A DNA stretch of 33,339 nt, taken from NCBI GenBank assembly GCA_002869895.2, contig NEWP02000029.1:72816-106154 (forward strand). Direction: 5' to 3'. Made by a program: the position numbers and the translations under genes. Source of the DNA: Nitrospira sp. CG24E (lineage in GTDB: Bacteria > Nitrospirota > Nitrospiria > Nitrospirales > Nitrospiraceae). Positions 1 through 19,226 of the stretch are shown in pieces (position 1 is the stretch's first letter; every line of letters starts with the position of its first letter). The notes under the pieces are model-generated. The model made no database searches. It saw nothing but the letters and a program-made list of their open reading frames with translations, and was not told the origin of the DNA.

Positions 1-1436
1 CTATCTGTTTCCATAGCGGTCTCTCGGACCAGGTGAAAGCCGATATCTGGGATCAGATACATAAGCAGGTCGTTCGAGTGGTCGTAGGAACCAGGTCGAC
101 GATCTTTCTCCCGTTGACTGCGATTGGAATGATTTGGGTCGAGGGGGAAGAAGATACCGCGCTGAAAGAGGCACAAGAACCTCGCTACCATGCACGGGAG
201 ATCGCATGGTTGAGGGCACAGCATGAACCGGCGGTGTTGGTCCTGGGCTCGTCCCATCCCTCCCTTGAGACCAGAGCGGCTGTGGAACAACAGGGCGTCG
301 TCGTATCTAAATCCATGCCGACCGAAGAGCGGCCCGGTATACAGATCATTGACCTGCGCGCTCATAGCCGAGGTGCAGTGCTGAGCCAACCGCTCGTTCG
401 AGCCATCGAACAGACCATCGGTCGCCAAGCCCGCGTCCTCTTGTTTCTCAACCGGAAGGGCTATGCCAGTGCACTCGTCTGTCGTGACTGCGGCCAGGTT
501 CCCCGTTGTTCTGCCTGTCGCGTGGCGCTGATATACTCTCGGCAAGCAAATCACCTGCTCTGTTCGTACTGCGGGGAGAGAGCACCCATCCCCGAGATTT
601 GCGTGGCCTGTTCCGGTCCTCGCATGCAGTTGATCGGAGAGGGAACAGAGCGAGTAGAAGAAGAGGCGAAACGGTTGTTTCCAGGCGCGGCAGTAATTCG
701 GCTTGATGGAGATACCATGAGACGGCCACCGCAGGCCGAGGCCCTCTGGCGGAGGGTTGAGCAAGGCGAGTGGGATATCGTCATCGGGACACAACTGTTG
801 CTACGGCATGGGCCGTTCCCAACGGTTGGTCTCGTTGGAATTGTGCAAGCAGACGCAGGGCTCAGCCTGCCGGATTTTCGGTCCGCCGAACGGACCTACC
901 ATACACTCCTTGATGCGGTCAGTCTCGCCGGTCCGGCAAGAGCCGGCGGTCAGGTGATCCTACAGACCCACTTGTCATCTCATCATACAATTCAAGCAGT
1001 GGCTCAACACGACGAAACCATATTTTTGTCGGAAGAGCTGTCCCATCGAACTGCCTTGGGCTACCCCCCTGCCATGTATCTGATTGCCCTCCTTGTATCG
1101 GGGACCGATGAGAAAATGGTTCGCGACGCTGCCACTGCCTGGGTCGCTCGACTCACCGCATACGCTTCAGCGTCCGTGGCTGAACAAGCAGTTTCGGGAC
1201 AGGCTCCCTCGACCACTCCAGCGATTGTTCGCCCAGACCGTCTCACGGTTTTGGGACCGGTTCCCTCTCTGGTATCCAGACTCCGGGGGCGCTATCGGCA
1301 ACAGATTCTCATGAAATCGCTGGAGAAGGGTCCGGGCCTCGAAGCGGTGCGGGTCACGGTCAAGGACATGGAACGGACGTATCAGCGCCGAGCCATCAAG
1401 TTCGATATCGACGTCGATCCAGTCGAAATGTGGTAG
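1..1436 (+). CDS. priA: PriA-like primosomal protein N' (5' partial, degenerate helicase motifs)
   Basis: This is the 3' part of a PriA-family replication-restart protein. The reading frame is open from the window edge (codons from base 3), and upstream of the first GTG (33) it already reads HSGLSDQ, the conserved PriA segment, so the true start lies outside the window. PriA normally binds stalled forks and uses ATP hydrolysis to load the replicative helicase. Seen here: an intact GTRS motif, and a zinc-binding region with eight cysteines in four pairs (about 477-650). The DEEH Walker B box is EGEED (141-155), the GTQMxxKGHDFP motif is GTQLLLRHGPFP (786-821), and AGRAGR is replaced by SLAGPA (921-938). 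The structural and zinc parts are therefore kept while catalytic motifs are lost, as in the actinobacterial PriA proteins thought to lack helicase activity. Family assignment is strong; loss of ATPase activity is inferred. Confidence 0.88.
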   Translation, partial: ICFHSGLSDQVKADIWDQIHKQVVRVVVGTRSTIFLPLTAIGMIWVEGEEDTALKEAQEPRYHAREIAWLRAQHEPAVLVLGSSHPSLETRAAVEQQGVVVSKSMPTEERPGIQIIDLRAHSRGAVLSQPLVRAIEQTIGRQARVLLFLNRKGYASALVCRDCGQVPRCSACRVALIYSRQANHLLCSYCGERAPIPEICVACSGPRMQLIGEGTERVEEEAKRLFPGAAVIRLDGDTMRRPPQAEALWRRVEQGEWDIVIGTQLLLRHGPFPTVGLVGIVQADAGLSLPDFRSAERTYHTLLDAVSLAGPARAGGQVILQTHLSSHHTIQAVAQHDETIFLSEELSHRTALGYPPAMYLIALLVSGTDEKMVRDAATAWVARLTAYASASVAEQAVSGQAPSTTPAIVRPDRLTVLGPVPSLVSRLRGRYRQQILMKSLEKGPGLEAVRVTVKDMERTYQRRAIKFDIDVDPVEMW

Positions 1437-2775: not shown

Positions 2776-3708
2776 TCAGTGAACGCGACGACCCGCGTTG
2801 ATCCGTCCCAACATCCGATAGATCAAGCGGGCGATACAAAACTGTGGGGCGACGAACCCTTCGATTGGAGCAATCTCGCTGATATCCATCCCGAGGATAC
2901 CCGGCCCATTGGCCAAGGCTGTCACGAGATTCAGCGTATCGTACCACCCCAACCCACCTGGCTCAGGAGTGCCGAGCGCGGGAACCAACGAAGCATCAAG
3001 CCCATCACAGTCGAAAGTCAGGTAGACCGGCCCACGACAGGCCTTTACGACATCGGAAACCCAGCGGGAGGCCTTGCCTTCGTAGGGGCCTGAGGGGTCA
3101 AGAATCTCGGCGGCAAAGAAGGTATCAATTCGATCGGAGCTCTGAATGCGATCGATCTCCTCGGGAGAAATGGAGCGAATACCGACTTGAACCAAGGGCA
3201 ACCCGTCATCGACAACTCGGGCCATTACACTGGCATGGCTATAGGGGTTCCCCCCATAGGCTTTCCGCAAGTCTCCATGCGCATCGATTTGAACCACGCA
3301 AAGGTCTGGATACCGTCTGGCATGGGCTCTGATAGCCCCGAGCGCGCCGGTATGTTCCCCCGTCAAGGTAACAACAAAGCGCCCCGTTCCGACTGAGGGA
3401 GCGACAAATGCCTCAATCGCATCAACCGCTTGCTGATCGACTTTGCCGTCAAGAGCGAGCGAGCGAGCAGTGGCGACCCCGCCCCACTCTCGATAGGGTT
3501 CACACCGAAGTGTTTCGTCGTATAACTCAACCTGTTGAGAGGCCTCAATGATGGCGGAAGGACCTCGATCGGAGCCCCGTACATAACTGGAGGTATGTTC
3601 GTAGGGCGCAGGCAGGACATAGACCCCCGCCCGATCAGGATGGCACCAAGCCTCCTCGAGCCCGAGGAAGTTCTGGTCGATGCCTTCCCATCCGGCGGGA
3701 AGTGTCAT
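2776..3708 (-). CDS. speB: Agmatinase (ureohydrolase family)
   Basis: A 310-residue arginase/agmatinase-family enzyme. Agmatinase hydrolyses agmatine to putrescine and urea using two Mn ions in the cytoplasm. The metal-binding motifs are present: GEHT (variant of GGDHS), DAHGDL, SHAS, and FDCDGLDASL followed by the family's GTPEPGG. Length fits the family (about 300-320). The ATG at 3708 lies 24 bases after the stop of the upstream pyruvoyl arginine decarboxylase, and the two together make the arginine-agmatine-putrescine route, which supports agmatinase over arginase. The first motif has threonine instead of serine and lacks one glycine, a mild deviation. The ribosome site is weak, so expression may rely on coupling to the upstream gene. 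Confidence 0.88.
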   Translation of the reverse strand: MTLPAGWEGIDQNFLGLEEAWCHPDRAGVYVLPAPYEHTSSYVRGSDRGPSAIIEASQQVELYDETLRCEPYREWGGVATARSLALDGKVDQQAVDAIEAFVAPSVGTGRFVVTLTGEHTGALGAIRAHARRYPDLCVVQIDAHGDLRKAYGGNPYSHASVMARVVDDGLPLVQVGIRSISPEEIDRIQSSDRIDTFFAAEILDPSGPYEGKASRWVSDVVKACRGPVYLTFDCDGLDASLVPALGTPEPGGLGWYDTLNLVTALANGPGILGMDISEIAPIEGFVAPQFCIARLIYRMLGRINAGRRVH

Positions 3709-3732
3709 GGGCGTACGCTCACGTGGGCAGAT

Positions 3733-4299
3733 CTACCGACGCCGTTTTGTCAGATTTTCTTCAGGAATAAACACGGCCAATGCAATCACCGTCGTCCATC
3801 GATTGGGTTTCCCAACGGCTGATTGAGTGATGTTTTGGGTCCGAACGATCTTGCCGGCCATCTTGAATACTTGTTCACGTTCTTTCCATGCGATGTTCGG
3901 ATCGAACTCGACACCGAGGGTCGTGGCCAACATCTGCGCCGCCAGGTCTTCGGTATACTCACCCGTCTCTTCATCGGTTTCACCATGCGCATGGTGCTCG
4001 GACAGATACCCATAGGTTCGACGGTCGGTCGGGACCGCCAATCCGATCGACGCGGAGGCCAGGCGATTCCGTTCATTCGTTTCCGACCGAGCCATCACAC
4101 AGAATGTGATTTCACCGGGATTCAATAACTTCTCGCCGCGTGCACGTGGAATAATTTTACAATTAGGTGGAAGAATCGACGACACCGTGACGAGATTACA
4201 ATAGGCGACGCCGGCACTGCGCAAGGCTTGCTCGAATGAGGCCAGCTTTTCCTTGTGGACTCCGACGCCTCGCGTCAAAAACATCTGCGTTGGTACCAT
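3733..4299 (-). CDS. pdaD: Pyruvoyl-dependent arginine decarboxylase
   Basis: A 188-residue proenzyme of the PvlArgDC family, which decarboxylates arginine to agmatine using a pyruvoyl group made by self-cleavage at an internal serine. The processing site VSSILPP is visible at residues 39-45. Cleavage is expected between Ser40 and Ser41, giving a small beta chain and a larger alpha chain that carries the pyruvoyl group. The region around GEITFCVMA and the [12 protein letters not shown] segment agree with the archaeal and bacterial family. The ATG at 4299 has a strong AAGGAG ribosome site 7 bases upstream. It heads the operon with agmatinase and RluF and makes the substrate for its neighbour. 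The enzyme type is best known from archaea and chlamydiae; here it replaces PLP-dependent SpeA. Confidence 0.9.
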
Positions 4300-4345
4300 C
4301 GTTCTTCTCCTTACTTCGTTCGACCGACCGGGTGACGGACGTTTT

Positions 4346-4375
4346 GTGTTAGTTGAACTGCGCGCTTTGAGTCAA
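4346..4375 (-). promoter_or_regulatory. Putative promoter of the arginine decarboxylase operon with inverted repeat
   Basis: Minus strand TTGACT (4370-4375), an 18-base spacer and TAACAC (4346-4351) put the transcription start near 4339, about 40 bases before the ATG. An AGTTGA...TCAACT inverted repeat (4351-4356 and 4372-4377), with half-sites 21 bases apart, overlaps both promoter elements and could be an operator. The -10 match is modest. Confidence 0.3.
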
Positions 4376-4449
4376 CTTCATAAAAGCACAGGGTCGCTGT
4401 TGTACCAAGATTGGCAACGCTTCGCAATATCCTGCGGCATTTTTTCTGA

Positions 4450-4572
4450 CAGGATGCTGAAAAAGTCCGCCAGCTTCGTTCTCGCATCGTTTAGACCCTC
4501 AACGTACCCCGAGGGTACGCTTCGGATCTTCACTCGCTGCGGCCTTGCTGGACGGCCATTTTGAGCATCCTG
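4450..4572. repeat. Dispersed palindromic repeat, copy 1 (MITE-like)
   Basis: A 123-base element bounded by near-perfect terminal inverted repeats: CAGGATGCTGAAAAAGTCC at the left end, and CAGGATGCTCAAAATGGCC read from the right end on the opposite strand. The interior contains CCTCAACGTACC and CACTCGCTGCGGCCTTGCTG. Related sequences occur at 21931-22166 and 24854-24945. It carries no gene. It lies upstream of the decarboxylase promoter and downstream of the aldehyde dehydrogenase gene. The remaining bases of the 4300-4631 gap hold only the putative promoter. Confidence 0.85.
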
Positions 4573-4631
4573 CGGGAGCGTTTTCTCAGTTGTGCCACAC
4601 ATGCAGACCCTGAAGACATTCCCGCCACCTG

Positions 4632-6071
4632 CTAGATCCCCGCAGGCGGTTTGAGGTTCAACACCAGCAGGCGAGGCTCTGTCATGTCCTCGATCGCAGC
4701 CCGCACTCCTTCGCGACCGATTCCGGAGTCCTTCACACCGCCATATGGCATGTGGTCGGCACGAAACGTCGGAATCTCGTTTGCCAGCACAGCCCCAACT
4801 TCAAGATGCCGGAAGGCATGAAAGACTTTGTTCACATCCTGGGTGAATACTCCGGCTTGAAGCCCAAAGTCAGATTGGTTAAGCGCTGTGATCGCTTCGC
4901 CGAAGTGGCGGTAGGGTGTTACGGTCACCACCGGCCCGAACACTTCCTGACAGGAAACTTTCATGGTTGGCGTGACGTGCGAGAGCACGGTCGCCTCCAT
5001 CACCGACCCCATTCTCTTGCCGCCCAGAAGCACACGGGCCCCTTGCGACACAGCTTCCCCAACCCATGTTTCAAGACGATGGGAGGCGGCTGGGTCGATC
5101 AACGGTCCAACCACTGTTGTATCGTCGCTTGGGTCGCCGGCCTTCAGCCGTGCGACTTGAAACAGAAACTTGGTGGTGAAGAGATCCACGATGGAATGGT
5201 GGACGAAGATTCGTTGAACGGATATGCAGGTCTGACCGGCATACCCGAACCCACCGGCTGCGCAACGCTGTGCAGCAAGCTCGATATCGGCATCGGGCTC
5301 CACGATGACGCCCGCGTTTCCACCAAGCTCCAACACCACCTTCTTCTTCCCGCACTTGGCCTTCAACATCCATCCCACGGCGGCGCTGCCGGTAAAGCTC
5401 AGGAGTTTGAAGCGGGAATCGGCAACAAGCTGTTCCGCCATAGCATTGTCGCAGGGCAGGATATTCACTGCGCCAGGCGGAAGTCCAGCCCCCAGAATAA
5501 CCTCTCCCAAAAGTAAGGAGGTCAAAGGCGTTTGTGGCGCCGGCTTGATCAGGATGGAATTGCCGGCAGCCAGGGCCGGCGCGACCTTGTGAGCCACAAG
5601 ATTGAGGGGAAAGTTGAAGGGGGTAATCCCCAGCACCGGGCCGATCGGAACCCGACGGAGGATGCCGAGATGGGAATCCGTTCCCGGTGTCCAGTCAAGG
5701 GGGACTACTTCGCCAGGGATCCGCCTCGCCTCTTCAGCCGCAACGGTAAATGTCTGAACGGCGCGATTCACTTCACGTTTCGCGTCGGTAATCGGTTTGC
5801 CTGCCTCAGCCGTCATCAAGCGGGCAAATTCCTCGCGGCGGTCATAGAGCCCGCCCGCGATCTTCTGCAACGCATGATAGCGAGCGTGGGACGGCAACGC
5901 TCCCATTGCAACAGCGGCATCGACCGTCGATTGGACCGCGTCCTCGGCATCGGCGGAACTAGCGGTCGATACCTCGGCGAGTAGACGTCCCGTGAATGGA
6001 TTGTTCACAGGCACAACGGTCTCTCCGTGCCGCCACAAACCTCCAATTAAAAATGGACGTGGTTCCTGCAC
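4632..6071 (-). CDS. NAD(P)-dependent aldehyde dehydrogenase
   Basis: A 479-residue aldehyde dehydrogenase superfamily protein that oxidises an aldehyde to its acid. The nucleophilic Cys282 sits in AGQTCIS and the general base Glu248 in LELGGNAG. Their 34-residue spacing is the family norm. TPFNFPLNL and KPAPQTPLTS form the nucleotide-binding part, and FGPVVTV and PYGGVKDSGIG are the conserved C-terminal blocks. The frame is open to 6194, but that would overlap the upstream zinc-ribbon gene. The GTG at 6071 has GGAG 7 bases upstream and is preferred, giving normal length. It is the last gene of a four-gene minus-strand run beginning with the deoxyhypusine synthase-like gene. The true substrate is unknown; lactaldehyde-type, glyceraldehyde-3-phosphate-type and aminoaldehyde specificities are all possible. 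Confidence 0.88.
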   Translation of the reverse strand: MQEPRPFLIGGLWRHGETVVPVNNPFTGRLLAEVSTASSADAEDAVQSTVDAAVAMGALPSHARYHALQKIAGGLYDRREEFARLMTAEAGKPITDAKREVNRAVQTFTVAAEEARRIPGEVVPLDWTPGTDSHLGILRRVPIGPVLGITPFNFPLNLVAHKVAPALAAGNSILIKPAPQTPLTSLLLGEVILGAGLPPGAVNILPCDNAMAEQLVADSRFKLLSFTGSAAVGWMLKAKCGKKKVVLELGGNAGVIVEPDADIELAAQRCAAGGFGYAGQTCISVQRIFVHHSIVDLFTTKFLFQVARLKAGDPSDDTTVVGPLIDPAASHRLETWVGEAVSQGARVLLGGKRMGSVMEATVLSHVTPTMKVSCQEVFGPVVTVTPYRHFGEAITALNQSDFGLQAGVFTQDVNKVFHAFRHLEVGAVLANEIPTFRADHMPYGGVKDSGIGREGVRAAIEDMTEPRLLVLNLKPPAGI

Positions 6072-6097
6072 GAAGTAGCTCCGCTTCTGGTGAAGAT

Positions 6098-6367
6098 TTA
6101 GTCGGTGGACTTCACCGATGCTGCAGAAGCCGGCTCGTGGCTGGCTGCTTGCTGGGCGACAGCGGCCTTCGCGATCAAATCTTCCGTACCCCAATCATGG
6201 ATCGCCTCAAGCGTGAAGGCCTCATACGTTGAGACACCTTGGCACGTCGGACAATCCGGCATCGGCACTTTGCAGTAGAAGACTTCTGACAAGCATGACA
6301 TGCAGACCCAGTAGGGGGGTTCTCCCTCACGGAGCGGAACAGACCAAAACGATTGTGTGGCAGACAT
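6098..6367 (-). CDS. Small zinc-ribbon-like hypothetical protein
   Basis: An 89-residue protein with two CxxC knuckles (CMSC near residue 22 and CPTC near 39), separated by a short segment that also holds one further cysteine. This is the arrangement of a small zinc ribbon or rubredoxin-like metal site. The C-terminal half is helical and alanine-rich with no motif. The ATG at 6367 has AAGGA 6 bases upstream, starts 9 bases after the DsbA-like stop, and the gene ends 26 bases before the aldehyde dehydrogenase start, so it is in the same operon. No function is known to me; metal or protein binding is inferred. Confidence 0.72.
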   Translation of the reverse strand: MSATQSFWSVPLREGEPPYWVCMSCLSEVFYCKVPMPDCPTCQGVSTYEAFTLEAIHDWGTEDLIAKAAVAQQAASHEPASAASVKSTD

Positions 6368-6376
6368 AGGTAATCC

Positions 6377-7084
6377 TTAGTGAATGATGAACTGACTGTT
6401 CTGTGCCACCGCAGTCGACCCATGAGGTTCTGTAGGCTCTCCCTGTGAACGCGGGGCGGTGGCCAACATGCGGTCGATCTCCTCGGCAAAATCCTCGAAT
6501 GGGACTGCGCCTGGGATCGCAACCGCCGGCTCTTTCTCAGTGGGTCCACCAGCCGTTCGCGTCAGAATAAAACCGGGGGTGCCATGAAATCCCCACCGGT
6601 TCGCTTCCTGGCGATCTCGGAAAATGGATTCGAGATATTCTCGTTCGTCGAAACACTTGGCAAACGCCGCCTCATCCAGGCCCATCGTCTTTGCGTAACC
6701 TTTGAACAGTCCCGAATTCAAGCGGCCCCGTTCACTGAAGAGCCGGTCGTGCATTGGCCAATATCGACCCTGGGCTCCAGCGCAGCGCGCCGCAACTGCC
6801 GCATCAACCCCGACCCCCTGATCCGCTCGAGGATAGTCCCGGTAAACAAACCGCACTTTGCCTGTATCAATATATTTTGCCTGCAAGCGAGGCCAGGTCT
6901 CCAGAAAGAATTTCGCACAGTACCCGCAGGTAAAGTCAGAATACTCGAGCAGAGTAATCGGAGCGTCGGCTCGTCCTCTGGTTCGTCCATCCTCTGTCAC
7001 CACTCCTCCGCCGGCCTGGGCCAGTTGAGCGAGGGCCAGCAGCAATGCACCGATAACCGTGTAGAACCACCGTGGACTCATCAT
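6377..7084 (-). CDS. DsbA-like thioredoxin-fold protein, exported
   Basis: A 235-residue thiol-disulfide protein. Residues 1-24 form a signal peptide with probable cleavage after AQA. The active site is C53-G-Y-C56 in YSDFTCGYCAKF, and the cis-proline loop is GTPGFIL. A helical insertion lies between them, as in the DsbA/Com1-type family (thioredoxin_4). The ATG overlaps the stop of the upstream deoxyhypusine synthase-like gene as ATGA, so translation is probably coupled. It likely acts outside the cytoplasmic membrane as a thiol oxidase or isomerase. The C-terminal 30 residues are polar and probably disordered. Why an exported thiol protein is coupled to a polyamine-type enzyme is not evident. 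Confidence 0.85.
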   Translation of the reverse strand: MMSPRWFYTVIGALLLALAQLAQAGGGVVTEDGRTRGRADAPITLLEYSDFTCGYCAKFFLETWPRLQAKYIDTGKVRFVYRDYPRADQGVGVDAAVAARCAGAQGRYWPMHDRLFSERGRLNSGLFKGYAKTMGLDEAAFAKCFDEREYLESIFRDRQEANRWGFHGTPGFILTRTAGGPTEKEPAVAIPGAVPFEDFAEEIDRMLATAPRSQGEPTEPHGSTAVAQNSQFIIH

Positions 7085-8187
7085 GTACGTGAGGTCCGCT
7101 TGGCTTTCATGCGCTCCAGCAATCCGACCATCAGAAGAGGCCAGACGACCGTGGCATCGCTCATTATCTCGGCAAAGCGCCCTCCTGCTTCAGGCGGAAC
7201 AAACTTTCCCCAGGAAAGGCCCTCTTGATAGGTACAGCCGCTCAATCCACCCAAATGATCCGGATCCGGACAGATTCGCACCCCGTATTGGAATCGAGGC
7301 GGCTCCACATCGAGCCCGAGCCTAGTATTGCAGATCTCGATGTAGGGGCCGACTTGTTGCGCCCAATTGCGCGGAACTCCCCCCCCGATCGTAAAGATCC
7401 CACGCCGCTTGGCCGAGACGACATGACTCGCATAACTGTTGAGATCGAGGTAGGGATTGAACGATGGACACGAACGTTGAATCGCACGCAGCACCTCAAG
7501 ATCATTACTTCCCGTTGCCTGCGCACGAGCCCGATCGAGATCTCGACTCATGGCCCAGGTTCCAAGATCCAGCCCCATCTCGGAATCGGTAAAGGCAGGA
7601 ATGAAGACCGGAACATTTTTCAGATAGGCGCTTTTGAGGATACCCGTTCCGTCATATTCTTCCGCGAGCGTCTTGCCCAATTCACGGGTGAGGATTTCTG
7701 AGGAAAGAGTCTGGTCCTGATCCATCCGCTTGATTGTTCGGGCAACGACCTGCTCAACATAGTTGAGATTGGACTCCATCTCCAGCGTGTCGTAGACCCG
7801 ATTGTAGCCCTTCTCGAACAACTCTTGGTCGGACATGGACGTATGGTGCCGATAGTGGGTTTTACCAACCGACTCACTCAATCCATGGGCGATCAATGCT
7901 CCGGTCGAGACGACGCATTGCACCATCCCATGATCGATCATCGCGCTGACGATCTTGCCCATCTTAGCAATGGTCATCGCCCCTGACAGCGTCAACACAA
8001 CGGAGCAGTCAGGGTCTTCGATCATCGTCCACAGCACTTCGTAAGCCTCACCCAGTCTGCGGCCCCCAAAGGCTGTCTTGCGCATTGCAGTCAGCAGGCC
8101 ATCGAAAGACTCAATCTGTTCCGGGTCGAGAGGCTCGAGCGCTTCGAGGCCGTCCTGCGCTCCATCGTGAAATTCACGTGTACCCAT
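7081..8187 (-). CDS. Deoxyhypusine synthase-family protein (possible homospermidine synthase)
   Basis: A 368-residue member of the deoxyhypusine synthase family. Visible family blocks are VVLTLSGAMT near residue 63, CVVSTGALIAHGL near 90, the FIPAFTDSEMG segment, FTIGGGVPRNW, and the SWGK block whose lysine (Lys328) matches the catalytic lysine that carries the aminobutyl imine. Bacteria lack eIF5A, so bacterial homologues are assigned to homospermidine or related polyamine synthesis by NAD-dependent aminobutyl transfer. An agmatine-derived guanidino polyamine is another reported family activity. The arginine decarboxylase and agmatinase genes lie 3 kb away, which supports a polyamine role. 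It is the first gene of a run whose second gene overlaps it by four bases. The ATG at 8187 has only a weak ribosome site. Confidence 0.85.
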   Translation of the reverse strand: MGTREFHDGAQDGLEALEPLDPEQIESFDGLLTAMRKTAFGGRRLGEAYEVLWTMIEDPDCSVVLTLSGAMTIAKMGKIVSAMIDHGMVQCVVSTGALIAHGLSESVGKTHYRHHTSMSDQELFEKGYNRVYDTLEMESNLNYVEQVVARTIKRMDQDQTLSSEILTRELGKTLAEEYDGTGILKSAYLKNVPVFIPAFTDSEMGLDLGTWAMSRDLDRARAQATGSNDLEVLRAIQRSCPSFNPYLDLNSYASHVVSAKRRGIFTIGGGVPRNWAQQVGPYIEICNTRLGLDVEPPRFQYGVRICPDPDHLGGLSGCTYQEGLSWGKFVPPEAGGRFAEIMSDATVVWPLLMVGLLERMKAKRTSRT

Positions 8188-10506: not shown

Positions 10507-10995
10507 ATGCGCGGACCTGGTCGCATCGATTCTGTCTCCCATGTCCTCGAGGGGTTGGCCCGTCGTTTGGGTCTCGAAACTGCGTTGCTCGAAAACCGAT
10601 TGCGGCGAGACTGGGTTGCGGTCGTCGGAGAACCCATCGCCTCAAACACCCGGCCGGACCAGATTCGTTTTAAGAAACTCTATCTCCTGGTCCGCAACAG
10701 TGTCTGGCTACACCAGCTCACCTTCCTCAAACCGGCCCTCCTCCAGAAACTCAACAGGGTGGCCGGTGGGGAACTCATAACCGACCTCGTGCTGCGGGTT
10801 GGAGAGTTGCCGGATGCCGGCTACCTGCTCGCCTCGCCAGCAATCCTTCGTGAGACCGTTTCACCACCGAGTGCGACATTGCTCGATGAAATATCGGCGC
10901 ACGTGACCGGCATTCAGGATCCGCTTCTCCGTGTTCGTCTCACGCTGCTCATGGCGCAGGTATTGACCCAACCGGGGGCGCCGAAGGCTGGCTGA
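10507..10995 (+). CDS. dciA: DUF721/DciA-like replicative helicase loader
   Basis: A 162-residue protein matching the DUF721 (DciA) pattern: an N-terminal helical part with RLGLETALLENRLRRDWVAVVG, then the KH-like part IASNTRPDQIRFKKLYLLVRNSVWLHQLTFLKP. DciA is the ancestral loader of the DnaB helicase in bacteria lacking DnaC or DnaI, and its genes commonly sit near dnaA or gyrB, as here. The C-terminal 60 residues are not conserved in my memory of the family. There is no ribosome site, and the ATG lies 6 bases after an extended -10, so a leaderless transcript is likely. Its 3' end overlaps the opposite-strand neighbour by 47 bases. Confidence 0.8.
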   Translation: MRGPGRIDSVSHVLEGLARRLGLETALLENRLRRDWVAVVGEPIASNTRPDQIRFKKLYLLVRNSVWLHQLTFLKPALLQKLNRVAGGELITDLVLRVGELPDAGYLLASPAILRETVSPPSATLLDEISAHVTGIQDPLLRVRLTLLMAQVLTQPGAPKAG

Positions 10996-11548
10996 GCGGC
11001 CCCTTGAAAAGTTGACGGACATCCGCTTGCATTGCCGTCGTCTCCGATCCATCCGGAAGCGGACCGATCCGTCCTTCTTCTTCCGACTCAGTCAGCTGAT
11101 ACAAGCCCCGCAAGGATCTTTGAAATCCTCCACGGTCCTCCCCGGTCAAATACTTGTGCAGTGTCACAGGCTCCGTCCAGGTATTGTCGGAAAAGATGTA
11201 GATGGTCATGCGGCGATAGTGGTCACCCGGATGGTCGGGCGTGGTCGGATTGATCTTCATCGGCTCGAACTTTCTTCCCTCGTGACCGACTATGCGAAAA
11301 CGCTCGATCAGCTTTTCGATGTCCTCATCACTCGTGTCGTCGGGAACATGGATCGCGACGACTGTCTCTTCTTGCGCTCCGACACTATAGGGAGGGATCG
11401 ATCGATCGGGGCGGGTCAGAAACATCCCGCCCCAGATCAGGGCAAAGCACCCGACAAGCACGCCAAGCCCTAACTTGACGACCATATCCATGGGCTTCTT
11501 GGGCTTGGACCTGGTAGGGAATGTTGAAGGTAGTTCCTGCTCCTGCAT
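10949..11548 (-). CDS. Hypothetical membrane-anchored protein downstream of gyrA
   Basis: A 199-residue protein with a short basic N-terminus, one membrane segment (near residues 24-43, VKLGLGVLVGCFALIWGGMF) and an extracytoplasmic domain with alternating acidic stretches, ending in a proline-rich tail. No family is recognised. The open frame extends to a TTG at 11572; the ATG at 11548 is chosen, with neither having a good ribosome site. It begins 48 bases after the gyrA stop and is probably co-transcribed. Its 3' end overlaps the dciA end by 47 bases in convergent orientation. Function unknown. Confidence 0.65.
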   Translation of the reverse strand: MQEQELPSTFPTRSKPKKPMDMVVKLGLGVLVGCFALIWGGMFLTRPDRSIPPYSVGAQEETVVAIHVPDDTSDEDIEKLIERFRIVGHEGRKFEPMKINPTTPDHPGDHYRRMTIYIFSDNTWTEPVTLHKYLTGEDRGGFQRSLRGLYQLTESEEEGRIGPLPDGSETTAMQADVRQLFKGPLSQPSAPPVGSIPAP

Positions 11549-11596
11549 GGGAGGCCTGCGCTCAACGAACAAGACGTATGACGTCGCGAATATCCG

Positions 11597-14059
11597 TTAG
11601 CTTCCGCCTTCCTCGGTGAGCACCTCGGCGCTCTCAGCCAAACGCGCAACGGCGACGACCCGATCGCCCGCACCATCCAGGTCGAGGATGCGAACCCCCT
11701 GGGTGTTACGGCCGATCTCACGAAATTCGTCCACCTTGCACCGAAGCACCTTGCCATGAGCGGCCATCAGCATGATCTCATCGCCGTCTCGGACTTGAAG
11801 AAACCCGACCGCGAGCCCATTACGCTCATTGGTCTTGACGCTGATGATGCCCTTCCCTCCGCGTCCTTGGACGCGATACTCATTCACCGGCGTGCGCTTT
11901 CCGTAGCCGCCCTCCGTGACCGTGAGGATTTGGGTGGTGGAATCGGGCGTGATCGTTTCCATACCGATGACATCGTTGCCTTCTTCAAGCGTAATGCCTC
12001 GCACTCCGTGCGCCGTGCGTCCCATCGGGCGCACGTCGTCTTCCTTGAAGCGGATCGTGATGCCCTTCTTCGTGCCCAAGAGGATTTCCCGCTGGCCGTC
12101 GGTCACATGCACACCGATAAGCCGGTCCCCCTTGTCCAACGACAGCGCGATGATGCCACCCTGGCGGGGATTGCCGTAAGCCGAGAGCTCGGTCTTCTTG
12201 ATGATGCCTTGCGCCGTCGCCATCACGACGAACCGGTCTTCCCGAAACTCTTTGACCGGCACGGTCGCGGTGACTTTCTCTTCTCCGGACAACGCCAGCA
12301 GATTCACCAGCGCTTTGCCCTTGGCGGCCCGTCCTGCGTCCGGAATCTCATGGACTTTCAGCCAATAGACCTTCCCTGCGTCGGTGAAGAACAGGAGGGA
12401 CTCATGGGTAGATGCGGTGAAGAGGGTCACGACAAAATCTTCTTCCTTCACTCCCATCCCGATCTTGCCCTTGCCGCCGCGCCGCTGTGCCCGATACAGG
12501 GTCACCGGGTTGCGCTTGATATAGCCTGCGTGCGAGATCGTAACGACCACCTCTTCGTTTGCGATCATGTCTTCCAGGGTGATCTCCGCTTCCTCTTTCA
12601 CAATCTGCGTGCGGCGGTCGTCCCGATAGGCCTCGCGCACTTCGATCAGCTCATCTTTGACGATCGTGCGAACCAGGGCGTCGCTGCCCAGGATCGACTT
12701 GAGACGTTCGATCTGCTTCAAAACATCTTTATATTCCTCGATCAGTTTGTTCCGCTCCAATTGCGTAAGCCGCTGGAGCCGCATCTCTAAAATCGCATTC
12801 GCCTGGATTTCACTCAGTGCAAATTGCCGCATCAGTCCGGTTCGCGCTTCATCAGGCGATTGCGCACGCCGAATCAAGGCAATCACCGCATCCAGGTTAT
12901 CGAGCGCGATCTTGAGACCCTCGAGTATATGGGCCCTTTCTTCTGCTTTGCGCAGCTCGAAGGCGGTCCGACGGACAATGACCTCGCGCCGGTGTTCGAT
13001 AAAATGATGCAGGATCTGCTTGAGGGTCAGCACCTCCGGCCTGTTGTTCACCAGCGCAAGCATGATAACTCCGAAGGTCGTCTGGAGTTGCGTGAGCTTA
13101 TACAGGTTGTTCAACGTAATAAGCGGAATTTCTCCGCGCTTGAGCTCAATGACGACGCGGATCCCGTCCCGATCGGATTCGTCGCGCAGATCGGAAATCC
13201 CTTTGATCCGTTCGTCCCGGATCAACTCCGCAATCTTTTCAATCAGCTTGGACTTATTGACCTGATAGGGGAGCTCCGTGACGATCAACCGTTCCCGATC
13301 CGTGCGTTCGTCTGACTCAATCTTCACCTTTGCGCGCAGGGTCAGGAGTCCCCGTCCACTTTCATAGGCGGACTTGATACCGGCCGTTCCATAGATGAAT
13401 CCAGCGGTCGGAAAATCCGGGCCTGGGATTTTTTTCATCAACTGCGCCAGTGTAATCTCCGGATTCTCGAGGAAGAGGAGGAGCCCGTCGATCACTTCGC
13501 CGACATTGTGAGTCGGAATGTTGGTGGCATAGCCCACCGCGATGCCGCCTGCGCCGTTGACAAGAAGATTCGGAATTTTAGAAGGGAGGACCAGCGGTTC
13601 GACCAGAGACTCGTCGTAATTGGGGCCAAAATCGACCGTTTCCTTGTCGATATCGGCGAGCATATCCTCGGCGACTTTGGTCAGGCGCGCTTCGGTGTAG
13701 CGCATAGCGGCAGGCGGATCGCCGTCCACCGATCCATAATTACCTTGGCCGTCCACCAGCATATAACGCATGTTGAATGGTTGCGCCATCCGAACAAGCG
13801 TGTCGTAGATCGCGCTGTCTCCGTGGGGGTGATAGTTCCCCATGATCTCGCCGACAATCTTGGCGGACTTCCGGTAGGCCCGGTTCGACGCCAAGCCCAT
13901 TTCATTCATGCCGTGGAGAATTCGGCGATGAACCGGCTTGAGGCCGTCACGCACATCGGGGAGCGCCCGACCGACGATGACGCTCATCGCGTAGCTCAGG
14001 TACGACGAGCGCATCTCATCTTCGATGGCGATCTGTCCTAGTCTCTCATCAGGGGGCAT
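11597..14059 (-). CDS. gyrA: DNA gyrase subunit A
   Basis: An 820-residue GyrA, the DNA-cleaving subunit of gyrase, which with GyrB introduces negative supercoils using [20 protein letters not shown] lies near residues 32-48, the catalytic tyrosine is Tyr121 in [10 protein letters not shown], and the C-terminal beta-pinwheel carries the GyrA box QRRGGKG, which marks it as gyrase and not topoisomerase IV. The quinolone-determining region has Ser82 and Asp86 (E. coli 83 and 87), the usual sensitive-type residues. The ATG at 14059 has AAGGAG 5 bases upstream. The gene follows gyrB with an 83-base gap in the order dnaA-dnaN-gyrB-gyrA. Confidence 0.97.
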
Positions 14060-14142
14060 CGACTCTCCTTTGACCGGGAGCTAATGGCTTATAGCAAATA
14101 GCACGAGCCTCCGGCCATACGCCATGAGCTATACGCTCTTCG

Positions 14143-16626
<2,484 letters not shown>

Positions 16627-16643
16627 TCACGGGCGCGAGGCCA

Positions 16644-16702
16644 GGGGCGAGCGGCAAGGGGTTGGGAGACGTTTTCTCCTCTAGCCTCGTGCCCCTCGCC
16701 CC
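16644..16702. repeat. Long imperfect inverted repeat between dnaN and gyrB
   Basis: GGGGCGAGCGGCAAGGGG (16644-16661) and CCTCGTGCCCCTCGCCCC (16685-16702) pair at 15 of 18 positions. The 23-base loop contains its own GGAGA/TCTCC arms. It lies between the dnaN stop and the gyrB ribosome site and lacks a T-tract, so it may be an mRNA processing or attenuation structure rather than a terminator. Confidence 0.6.
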
Positions 16703-16707
16703 GTGTC

Positions 16708-17838
16708 TCAAACTTTAATCGGCATGACCACGCACTTGAACCCTGGACTGTCTGATTCCTGAATCAAACAGGGGCTCAGCGGATTGTCCATTTGAAGAGA
16801 GATCGTTTCTCCATCCATCACCCCGAGCACATCCAGCAAATAGCGGGCATTGAACCCCGTATTCAGAGCCTCCCCCTCATACCGTGCGGCAAGCTCTTCG
16901 GTCGCTTCCCCGAAATCGGGATTGCTGGAAAACAGCGTCATCTGCCCGGCGGCAAAGGAGACCTTTACCGCGCTTGCCTTATCGCGGGACAGCACGGAGA
17001 CGCGCCGCAACGCACTTTCAAGCTCGCTACGATTGACCCCGATTTTCCTGTCGCTCTCTTTTGGAATGACTTGCTGATAATTCGGGTAGTTCCCCTCCAT
17101 GAGCCGCGAGGTCAACAGCAGCCCGCTCTTCCGAAAAATCATGAGATTTTTCGTAAACCCGATCAAGGGTTCTCCCTCGCCGCCCTCTTCCAACAGACGT
17201 TGCATCTCATGCGCCGCTTTCTTCGGAATGATCGCCTTGATCTCTTGCGGAGCACCCTTGGCCCCGGCCTTCCCGACCTCCTGCTCGGCAATGGCCAATC
17301 GATGTCCATCGGTGCCGACCAGCCGCAAGATCGTTTTCTTTTCCGTCGAGATAAGCGTCACTAAAAGACCGTTGAGAATGTAGCGCGCGTCGTTGTCTCC
17401 TGCGGCAAAGAGGGTTTTCCGAATCAGCTCCAGAAAACCGGCCCCGGCAAGGGGAATGAGCCCTTCCCGTTCGATCGCCGGCAGCGCGGGGTAGTCGGTG
17501 CTGGGAAGTCCGACGATCTTGAATTGGCTCTTACCGGCTTGAATCGTCGTCCAATTATTATCACCCGAGGTGATCTCGATCTCACCGACCGCCAGCTCTT
17601 TGATAATCTCGTAGAGCTTCCGGGCCGAGACCGTGATTCCCCCAGCCTTCTCCACCGTAGCCTTGTAGTGCCCCCGCATGCCGATTTCGAGATCGGTGGC
17701 GACAATTTCGACCCCCTCCTGTTTTGCCTCGATCAAAATATTGGAAAGGATCGGCATCGTATTGCGCTTCTCTACGACACCTTGAACCCGCTGGAGACCC
17801 GTCAAGAGCTCAACTCGTCCCATACGCAGTTTCATCAT
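16708..17838 (-). CDS. dnaN: DNA polymerase III beta sliding clamp
   Basis: A 376-residue sliding clamp, which encircles DNA as a dimer and tethers polymerase III and other partners. It begins MMKLRMGRVELLTGLQRVQG and contains the family blocks KRNTMPILSNILIEA, VGTDGHRLAI in the second domain, and the C-terminal hydrophobic-pocket end KCVVMPIKV. The frame is open to a GTG at 17856, but the ATG at 17838 has GGAGG 7 bases upstream and gives normal length. It starts 23 bases after the dnaA stop and is part of the dnaA-dnaN-gyrB-gyrA series. Confidence 0.96.
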   Translation of the reverse strand: MMKLRMGRVELLTGLQRVQGVVEKRNTMPILSNILIEAKQEGVEIVATDLEIGMRGHYKATVEKAGGITVSARKLYEIIKELAVGEIEITSGDNNWTTIQAGKSQFKIVGLPSTDYPALPAIEREGLIPLAGAGFLELIRKTLFAAGDNDARYILNGLLVTLISTEKKTILRLVGTDGHRLAIAEQEVGKAGAKGAPQEIKAIIPKKAAHEMQRLLEEGGEGEPLIGFTKNLMIFRKSGLLLTSRLMEGNYPNYQQVIPKESDRKIGVNRSELESALRRVSVLSRDKASAVKVSFAAGQMTLFSSNPDFGEATEELAARYEGEALNTGFNARYLLDVLGVMDGETISLQMDNPLSPCLIQESDSPGFKCVVMPIKV

Positions 17839-17861
17839 CTCTTCCCCTCCAGCCACGACGC

Positions 17862-19226
17862 TCAGGCGCGCAGGATTTGCTCTCTCAAGCTGTCCAAGGT
17901 GGCACTCAATGCACTGTCGCTGTCTTTCGCTTTCGTGACCTGCTTGCAGGCATGAATGATGGTCGTGTGGTCCTTGCCGCCGAACTGACGTCCGATTTCG
18001 GGATAAGACGAATCCGTGAGCTCCCGACAGAGATACATGGCGATCTGTCTCGGATGCACCAGCATCTTGCTTCGACGGCGAGATTTCAGATCGGCGATCT
18101 TCACGTGGAACCGCGCACCCACCGTTTCTTGAATATCGTCCATCGACACGATCTTTTTCTTGCTGCCGATCAAATCCCGGAGCACGTTCTTCGCCATCTC
18201 CAGCGTGATAGTTTGGCCTGTGAGCGAAGCATAGGCGCCAAGACGCACCAGCGACCCCTCAAGCTCGCGGATATTGCTTTTCATCGTCGTCGCAAGAAAC
18301 TGGATGACGTCTTCCGGCAGCGTGACGCCTTCGTCCTCGGACTTTTTCCGCAAGATGGCGATTCGTGTTTCAACGTCCGGCGGCTGGAGATCGGCAATCA
18401 AGCCCCATTCGAACCGCGATCTCAACCGCTCCTCAATGTCGGGCATGTCTTTCGGAAAACGATCGCTCGACAGAACAAGCTGTTTATGCGCTTCATAGAG
18501 CGCGTTGAATGTGTGAAAGAATTCCTCCTGCGTCCGCTCTTTACCCGCCAAAAATTGAATGTCGTCGATCATCAGCATATCGATATGACGATACCGCTTC
18601 CGCAGATCCATCATCTTGTCGTATCGAATGGAGTTGATGACCTCATTGGTAAACTGCTCCGTCGTCAAATATGCAATCCGGAGATCGGTCCGTTCAGCCA
18701 CATAATTCCCGATGGCATTCAAGAGATGTGTTTTTCCGAGTCCGGTCTCACCATAAATAAATAGCGGGTTATAGGCTTTTGCCGGCTGTTCAGCGACCGC
18801 CATGCAGGCGGCGTGGGCAAATTGATTTCCTGCGCCGACGACAAAATTCTTGAACGAATACTTTGGGTTCAGTAGTATGCCTCGCTTCGGCTTGACCCCT
18901 GTACTTTGGCGACTGGTTGTCGCAGTGCCCCCGCTATTTTCAGACTGCCTTGCCTGCTTCTGAGAAATAACGAACATGATAGTGGTCTCTTCTCCGCCTC
19001 GAGTAGCAGAAACAGCCTCTGCCAGAAGCGAACCGTAATGTTGGCTTAACCAGTCGCCAAAAAATTTATTTGGCACGCCAAGTTGAGCTGTAGACCCCTC
19101 GATCCTTTCAAGATGAATAGGCGTAAACCAGGTATCATAGACTTGCTTTGGAACTTTCCCTTGGATATAGGCCAAGGCGCTCTGCCATTCGCTTGGGATA
19201 GTCATAATTCCTACATTACTCTTCAT
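17862..19226 (-). CDS. dnaA: Chromosomal replication initiator protein DnaA
   Basis: A 454-residue DnaA, the AAA+ initiator that binds DnaA boxes and opens oriC. Domain I starts at SEWQSALAYIQGKVPKQVYDTWF. A short linker follows, then the AAA+ domain with Walker A GETGLGKTH (about residue 160) and Walker B MLMIDDIQFL. The C-terminal DNA-binding domain carries the signature GGKDHTTIIHACK. The ATG at 19226 gives a normal N-terminus; a second ATG at 19205, preceded by AGGA at short spacing, would remove seven residues. The gene is the first of the replication cluster and is directly preceded by a DnaA-box-containing region, so autoregulation by DnaA is likely. Confidence 0.98.
   Translation of the reverse strand: MKSNVGIMTIPSEWQSALAYIQGKVPKQVYDTWFTPIHLERIEGSTAQLGVPNKFFGDWLSQHYGSLLAEAVSATRGGEETTIMFVISQKQARQSENSGGTATTSRQSTGVKPKRGILLNPKYSFKNFVVGAGNQFAHAACMAVAEQPAKAYNPLFIYGETGLGKTHLLNAIGNYVAERTDLRIAYLTTEQFTNEVINSIRYDKMMDLRKRYRHIDMLMIDDIQFLAGKERTQEEFFHTFNALYEAHKQLVLSSDRFPKDMPDIEERLRSRFEWGLIADLQPPDVETRIAILRKKSEDEGVTLPEDVIQFLATTMKSNIRELEGSLVRLGAYASLTGQTITLEMAKNVLRDLIGSKKKIVSMDDIQETVGARFHVKIADLKSRRRSKMLVHPRQIAMYLCRELTDSSYPEIGRQFGGKDHTTIIHACKQVTKAKDSDSALSATLDSLREQILRA

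Follow-up and report, generated by a model that had tools for sequence, protein, structure and literature searches.

The window analyzed here is a 33,339-nucleotide stretch of the Nitrospira sp. CG24E genome (C22:72816-106154; 3.45 Mb in 99 contigs). It opens with the 3′ part of priA, encoding the primosomal protein from residue ~297 to the C-terminal end (Table 1) and matching TIGR00595 at profile positions 56-509 with 387.8 bits (cut-off 230.35). Position 33, where the interval given in the preliminary description begins, is not the gene start, as the frame stays open up to base 3. The window starts right after a 100-N scaffold gap at which the 5′ part of priA is cut off, and the PriAs of relatives carry about 300 additional N-terminal residues. 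Querying the genome with the full-length PriA of the nearest relative (G015) returned residues 297-774 at C22:72815-74248 (plus strand, 93% identity) and residues 1-248 at C22:18204-18947 (minus strand, 87% identity), so that the N-terminal half lies on the same scaffold, 54 kb off, inverted and likewise stopping at a 100-N gap. This half contains FADVIVPRHLAGPFTYTVP, in line with a 3′ DNA-binding domain. The gaps C22:18107-18206 and C22:72716-72815 bracket an apparently inverted piece that splits priA, and since flipping the piece between them would join the two halves, the split is most simply explained by a mis-oriented scaffold piece. About 48 PriA residues of this genome fall in the gap, the Walker A position among them.

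Beyond priA, positions 10507-19226 hold a replication-start cluster, with dciA on the plus strand followed by gyrA, gyrB, dnaN and dnaA on the minus strand. Arginase/agmatinase-family, pyruvoyl-dependent arginine decarboxylase and deoxyhypusine-synthase-family genes at 2776-8187 (minus strand) likely form a polyamine cluster, and a 1091-aa open frame at 28353-31628 matches no Pfam family at E values up to 0.01.

Table 1. Positions of priA features and of dciA in the window; residue numbers are those of E. coli PriA.
Feature	Position	Strand	Basis or detail
PriA (primosomal protein N′), C-terminal 477 residues	3-1436	+	TIGR00595, PF18074, identity to the nearest relative
GTRS, motif Ia region, kept	87-98	+	Sequence read
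Degenerate Walker B, EGEED for DEEHD	141-155	+	Third acid alone (E322) in place
Changed motif III, GSSHPS for GSATPS	246-263	+	Motif comparison
G-V codons at K371-Y372 (K371 touches the SSB tail tip)	294-299	+	Alignment; pocket residues from PMC5531588
Zinc region, eight Cys all kept	480-611	+	Cys in 140/140 Nitrospirota PriAs at each position
Changed motif V, GTQLLLRHGPFP for GTQMxAKGHDFP	786-821	+	Motif comparison
DFRSAER, kept	873-893	+	Sequence read
Motif VI region, both Arg gone	912-947	+	R584 to L (924-926), R587 to P (933-935)
PriA C-terminal domain PF18074	1074-1421	+	Pfam; R698 to K (1326-1328), Q702 to L (1338-1340)
DciA, candidate DnaB loader possibly acting downstream of PriA	10507-10995	+	PF05258, 73.2 bits

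The preliminary description of this protein as a PriA that has lost its helicase motifs and kept its zinc cysteines was borne out by the motif comparison. The Walker B DEEH of active SF2 helicases is replaced by EGEE (141-152), motif V departs from the KGHDFP type, and the motif VI region, DAVSLAGPARAG, lacks GRAGR, with L and P at the two arginine positions. The GTRS and all eight zinc-region cysteines (codons beginning at 480, 489, 507, 516, 561, 570, 600 and 609) are retained as described; a ninth cysteine, at 6-8, is unrelated to the zinc region. The Walker A motif GxTGSGKT, which falls in the gap in this genome, is lost in relatives from the genus, where the site reads, for example, VQAPWADRLRLLQQ. 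Chance or sequencing error as the source of the motif loss was ruled out, because substitutions of the same type have become fixed throughout the genus and the order. The marks of a PriA are present, namely a score above the TIGR00595 cut-off, the eight zinc cysteines, the C-terminal domain and, in a same-genus protein, the 3′ DNA-binding domain and the modelled overall fold.

An intact helicase-type PriA elsewhere in the genome, a prospect raised in the preliminary description, was searched for in the 99 contigs; no second intact PriA was found, and two weaker matches proved to be an Mfd-type protein and UvrB. On contig C6 of the same genome, an 820-aa frame (locus L002, 625-3087, plus strand) combines the C-terminal half of Mfd with an SprT-like metallopeptidase (PF10263). 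Its junction contains no N runs and Mfd elsewhere in the genus is about 1160 aa long; the frame is either a real fusion or an assembly chimera.

Each of the 32 genomes examined in the genus has a single PriA scoring above the TIGR00595 cut-off, and all full-length ones match the profile only from position 16-17 on, that is, after the P-loop. Across 395 sampled Nitrospirota genomes, the Nitrospirales PriAs among the matches listed start at profile position 10 or later, and many other families match from position 1. Motif conservation was compared in 140 Nitrospirota PriAs, as the preliminary description had proposed, giving 29 intact and 111 degenerate sequences, the latter without the catalytic lysine and a motif VI arginine. 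The P-loop lysine K230 is present in 29/29 intact and 0/111 degenerate PriAs. Arginine is found at R587 in 28 of the 29 intact proteins and is not among the common residues there in any degenerate group. Hardly any of the 111 has an unbroken Walker B box, motif V or motif VI; family f4 retains DEEH. The third Walker B acid, E322 (window 147-149), is retained in 110/111 degenerate PriAs, in which the rest of the box is mostly gone. No PriA was found in three near-complete Nitrospiraceae MAGs (G134, G278 and G412), through true loss or a gap in the MAG. A second degenerate copy with an internal TGA (L147, on G318:C53) in family f9 may come from a second strain or contamination.

The motif loss is order-wide among the sampled members of the Nitrospirales. 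Outside the order, degenerate PriAs occur in families f9 and f13 of the same class and in a clade of other classes (f17 to f40). In a PriA tree computed without the motif columns, the degenerate sequences separate three ways, with the other-class clade on one branch (support 1.0), Nitrospirales joined by f9 on a second (0.80) and f13 by itself; the branches are long and deep placement is unsafe. As intact PriAs are present on each side of the phylum, the motifs were lost at least twice in Nitrospirota. A single common loss for all degenerate PriAs is not favoured, given the three tree groups and the intact relatives in both classes.

PriA is under purifying selection. Within the genus its median dN/dS is 0.17, with the lowest value (0.11) in the zinc-bearing part of lobe 2, and the ratio between this genome and its nearest relative is 0.27. 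An AlphaFold model of a full-length PriA from a same-genus MAG (L148), which also matches PF17764 (3′ DNA-binding domain), has a mean pLDDT of 86.6, and its best PDB matches are all PriA (8fak, 4nl4, 6dcr and 6dgd, Z about 31; for 8fak, Z 31.0 and 2.6 Å over 633 residues). By its selection and fold, the protein is thus a homolog that has been maintained in the shape of PriA, very probably with a dead ATPase.

The main SSB lacks a terminal Pro-Phe in 39/39 sampled Nitrospirales genomes and ends in PF in 37/37 other Nitrospirota genomes, counts that reflect one shared ancestry and not independent events. The C-terminal tail of SSB has been termed highly conserved among all eubacteria (PMC10143822), and deletion of the terminal Phe is lethal in E. 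coli (PMC10164576). The one SSB found in the CG24E genome (L231, C14:67512-67820 and onward) ends in GYEPEEHV, its C-terminus reading ...AHDDAGYEPEEHV-stop in place of a classical DDDIPF-like tip, and none of the three SSB-like proteins in the complete genome of Nitrospira moscoviensis has a PF end. In Candidatus Manganitrophus, PriA retains motif VI and SSB ends in DEVPF. No frameshifted PF was found near the SSB stop codon in the 11 Nitrospirales loci checked. PF-tipped paralogs were considered and set aside, the extra SSB copies of G007 and N. moscoviensis also lacking PF; the copies of G270 and G395 were left out. A motif of the type (Y/F)(E/D)..(E/D), defined after the tails had been read, occurs in the last 13 SSB residues of 33/39 Nitrospirales and 0/37 other genomes. 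A literature search found no paper on Nitrospira PriA or on the Nitrospira SSB tip.

The PriA pocket that grips the SSB tip consists in K. pneumoniae of W82, Y86, K370, R697 and Q701 (PMC5531588). These residues were mapped by alignment from the 4.1 Å structure to E. coli W83, Y87, K371, R698 and Q702, the placement of K371 being less secure than those of W83 and Y87. The CG24E PriA has Q, Q, G, K and L at the five positions and thus no classical docking pocket. Outside Nitrospirales, nearly every intact or other pseudohelicase PriA retains W/F, Y and K/R; R698 and Q702 are variable everywhere among Nitrospirota PriAs. A scan of PriA picked out 48 positions that are conserved among intact PriAs and also among the other pseudohelicases. 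Six of these persist in less than 40% of the f1-f3 sequences of Nitrospirales, and W83, Y87 and K371, the three pocket residues that are informative, all belong to the six (hypergeometric P 0.0012, indicative only because the 0.4 threshold was picked after the data had been seen). The SSB-tip pocket is eroded in most of the Nitrospirales.

The family f4 lacks the SSB tip and retains the PriA W, Y and K as well as the Walker B DEEH, suggesting that loss of the tip preceded loss of the pocket. Family f13 shows the opposite pattern, with the pocket gone and the tip retained, indicating that the two losses are not strictly tied. S. aureus PriA likewise lacks the SSB pocket, yet is bound by SaSsbA (PMC5531588), so pocket loss alone is no proof of uncoupling. 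Loss of the RecO pocket was looked for and not seen, R203 remaining K/R in Nitrospirales. The SSB pocket of RecG (R474, R614) is uninformative, since Nitrospirota from outside the order mostly lack it already. These results do not show that the SSB hub as a whole has collapsed.

We consider it likely that the product of this gene is a PriA pseudohelicase, which would serve as a scaffold for recognising forks and be coupled neither to ATP hydrolysis nor to the SSB tail; a role as "scaffold only", proposed at the outset, is the best inference from these comparisons. Such a PriA would recognise abandoned forks through their shape and the 3′ end of the nascent leading strand. It would neither hydrolyse ATP nor unwind the lagging arm, and would act as a platform for reloading the replicative helicase DnaB, probably with DciA. 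With the SSB tip lost and the PriA pocket eroded, we infer that recruitment would no longer run through the classical SSB tail; the recruiter could be the fork structure itself or the changed (Y/F)(E/D)..(E/D) tail motif. Restart in Nitrospirales thus probably runs without a PriA motor and without the SSB-tip handle.

Other readings of the protein were weighed against this one. That it is a decaying pseudogene or dispensable relic, its PriA function lost and eroding, might be argued from the loss of every catalytic motif and from the few near-complete Nitrospiraceae MAGs without a detected PriA. This reading is already contradicted by the selection on priA: the full-length frame is open genus-wide at a dN/dS of 0.17, the eight cysteines are invariant and PriA is conserved over the entire order, all of which makes a relic extremely unlikely. 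In principle, nucleotide might still be bound in the degenerate pocket, and a helicase that binds or hydrolyses ATP through a non-canonical site with compensating residues would be consistent with RecA-like lobes predicted to be intact and with the near-universal retention of the Walker B acid E322. It is nonetheless improbable, as the P-loop Gly-Lys-Thr, Walker B and the motif VI arginine are lost together in the 111 sequences, and a single K-to-R change, which also occurs in the inactive D. radiodurans PriA, abolishes the ATPase of E. coli PriA (PMC4504706).

Two further proposals concern the partners of a PriA scaffold. The helicase role may have shifted to RecG, a Rep/UvrD-type enzyme or DnaB-DciA, for which PriA would be the landing pad, a proposal that builds on the scaffold model and is compatible with it. 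RecG-type helicases occur in nearly all genomes tested and DciA in 30/30, but both are equally present beside intact PriA and neither tracks its loss, leaving such a shift possible but doubtful. RecG-family matches were found in 80/80 genomes (in a few, including that of CG24E, the best match is only an Mfd), and co-loss of RecG with the PriA helicase was rejected on this count. Another candidate, to which we give slightly less than even credence, is that the tail change created a new docking motif, an internal aromatic-acidic one replacing the terminal Phe and carboxylate. The distribution of the motif, the still acidic SSB tail and the retained basic residue of RecO point this way; the motif is, however, absent in both f4 genomes, and it was defined after the fact.

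Taking the scaffold reading of PriA to the level of the order, the chances appear even that throughout Nitrospirales, cultured nitrite-oxidising Nitrospira included, the SSB tail hub has been dismantled or rebuilt, with Pro-Phe replaced by an aromatic-acidic motif, partners such as PriA without the old pocket, and restart on a motorless PriA without the classical SSB handle. The SSB tail interaction hub is regarded as near-universal in bacteria; the absence of the tip in all sampled Nitrospirales warns that models resting on it may not apply to every bacterium. The order offers a natural system for asking if replication and repair can do without the classical hub, and by what arrangement. Biochemically known PriA pseudohelicases come from one phylum so far, and at least two motif losses beside close relatives with intact PriA constitute a natural test of what the PriA helicase is for.

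Actinobacterial PriA, with which the preliminary description compared this protein, is annotated in databases as lacking helicase domains. The literature consulted describes it only as "smaller and very divergent" (PMC1193525). The better comparator is the biochemically proven pseudohelicase of D. radiodurans. Like Nitrospira, actinobacteria (e.g. M. tuberculosis Rv1402) combine a divergent PriA ortholog with DciA. The actinobacteria-type NCBIfam models (PRK14873 series) score far below helicase-type models on the window PriA, indicating that it is no close relative of the actinobacterial proteins. E. coli PriA and its helicase-dead K230R variant (priA300) have the same domain order as Nitrospira PriA; the E. 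coli enzyme itself is an active 3′-5′ helicase that docks on the tip of the SSB tail.

The closest known system is the D. radiodurans PriA pseudohelicase, which has no ATPase and does not unwind, yet binds forks and DnaB (PMC4504706). It too is a PriA ortholog whose Walker A and B motifs are broken, and in D. radiodurans, which has no clear PriB or DnaT, DnaB is bound directly by PriA. D. radiodurans is an independent lineage in which the Walker A Lys has become Arg inside the motif, whereas in Nitrospirales the P-loop has been replaced in its entirety and motifs V and VI have disappeared too. Loss of the SSB tip in D. radiodurans is not reported in the parts of PMC4504706 consulted. Within Nitrospirota, the f17 to f40 clade also lacks the P-loop, Walker B and motifs V and VI and keeps the zinc cysteines; it differs in having its own separate tree branch, an SSB ending in PF and a retained SSB pocket (W 44/45, Y 42/45, K/R 44/45). 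The PriA pseudohelicase is thus of a kind already proven in Deinococcus, and what is new here is the loss of the SSB tip with erosion of the pocket.
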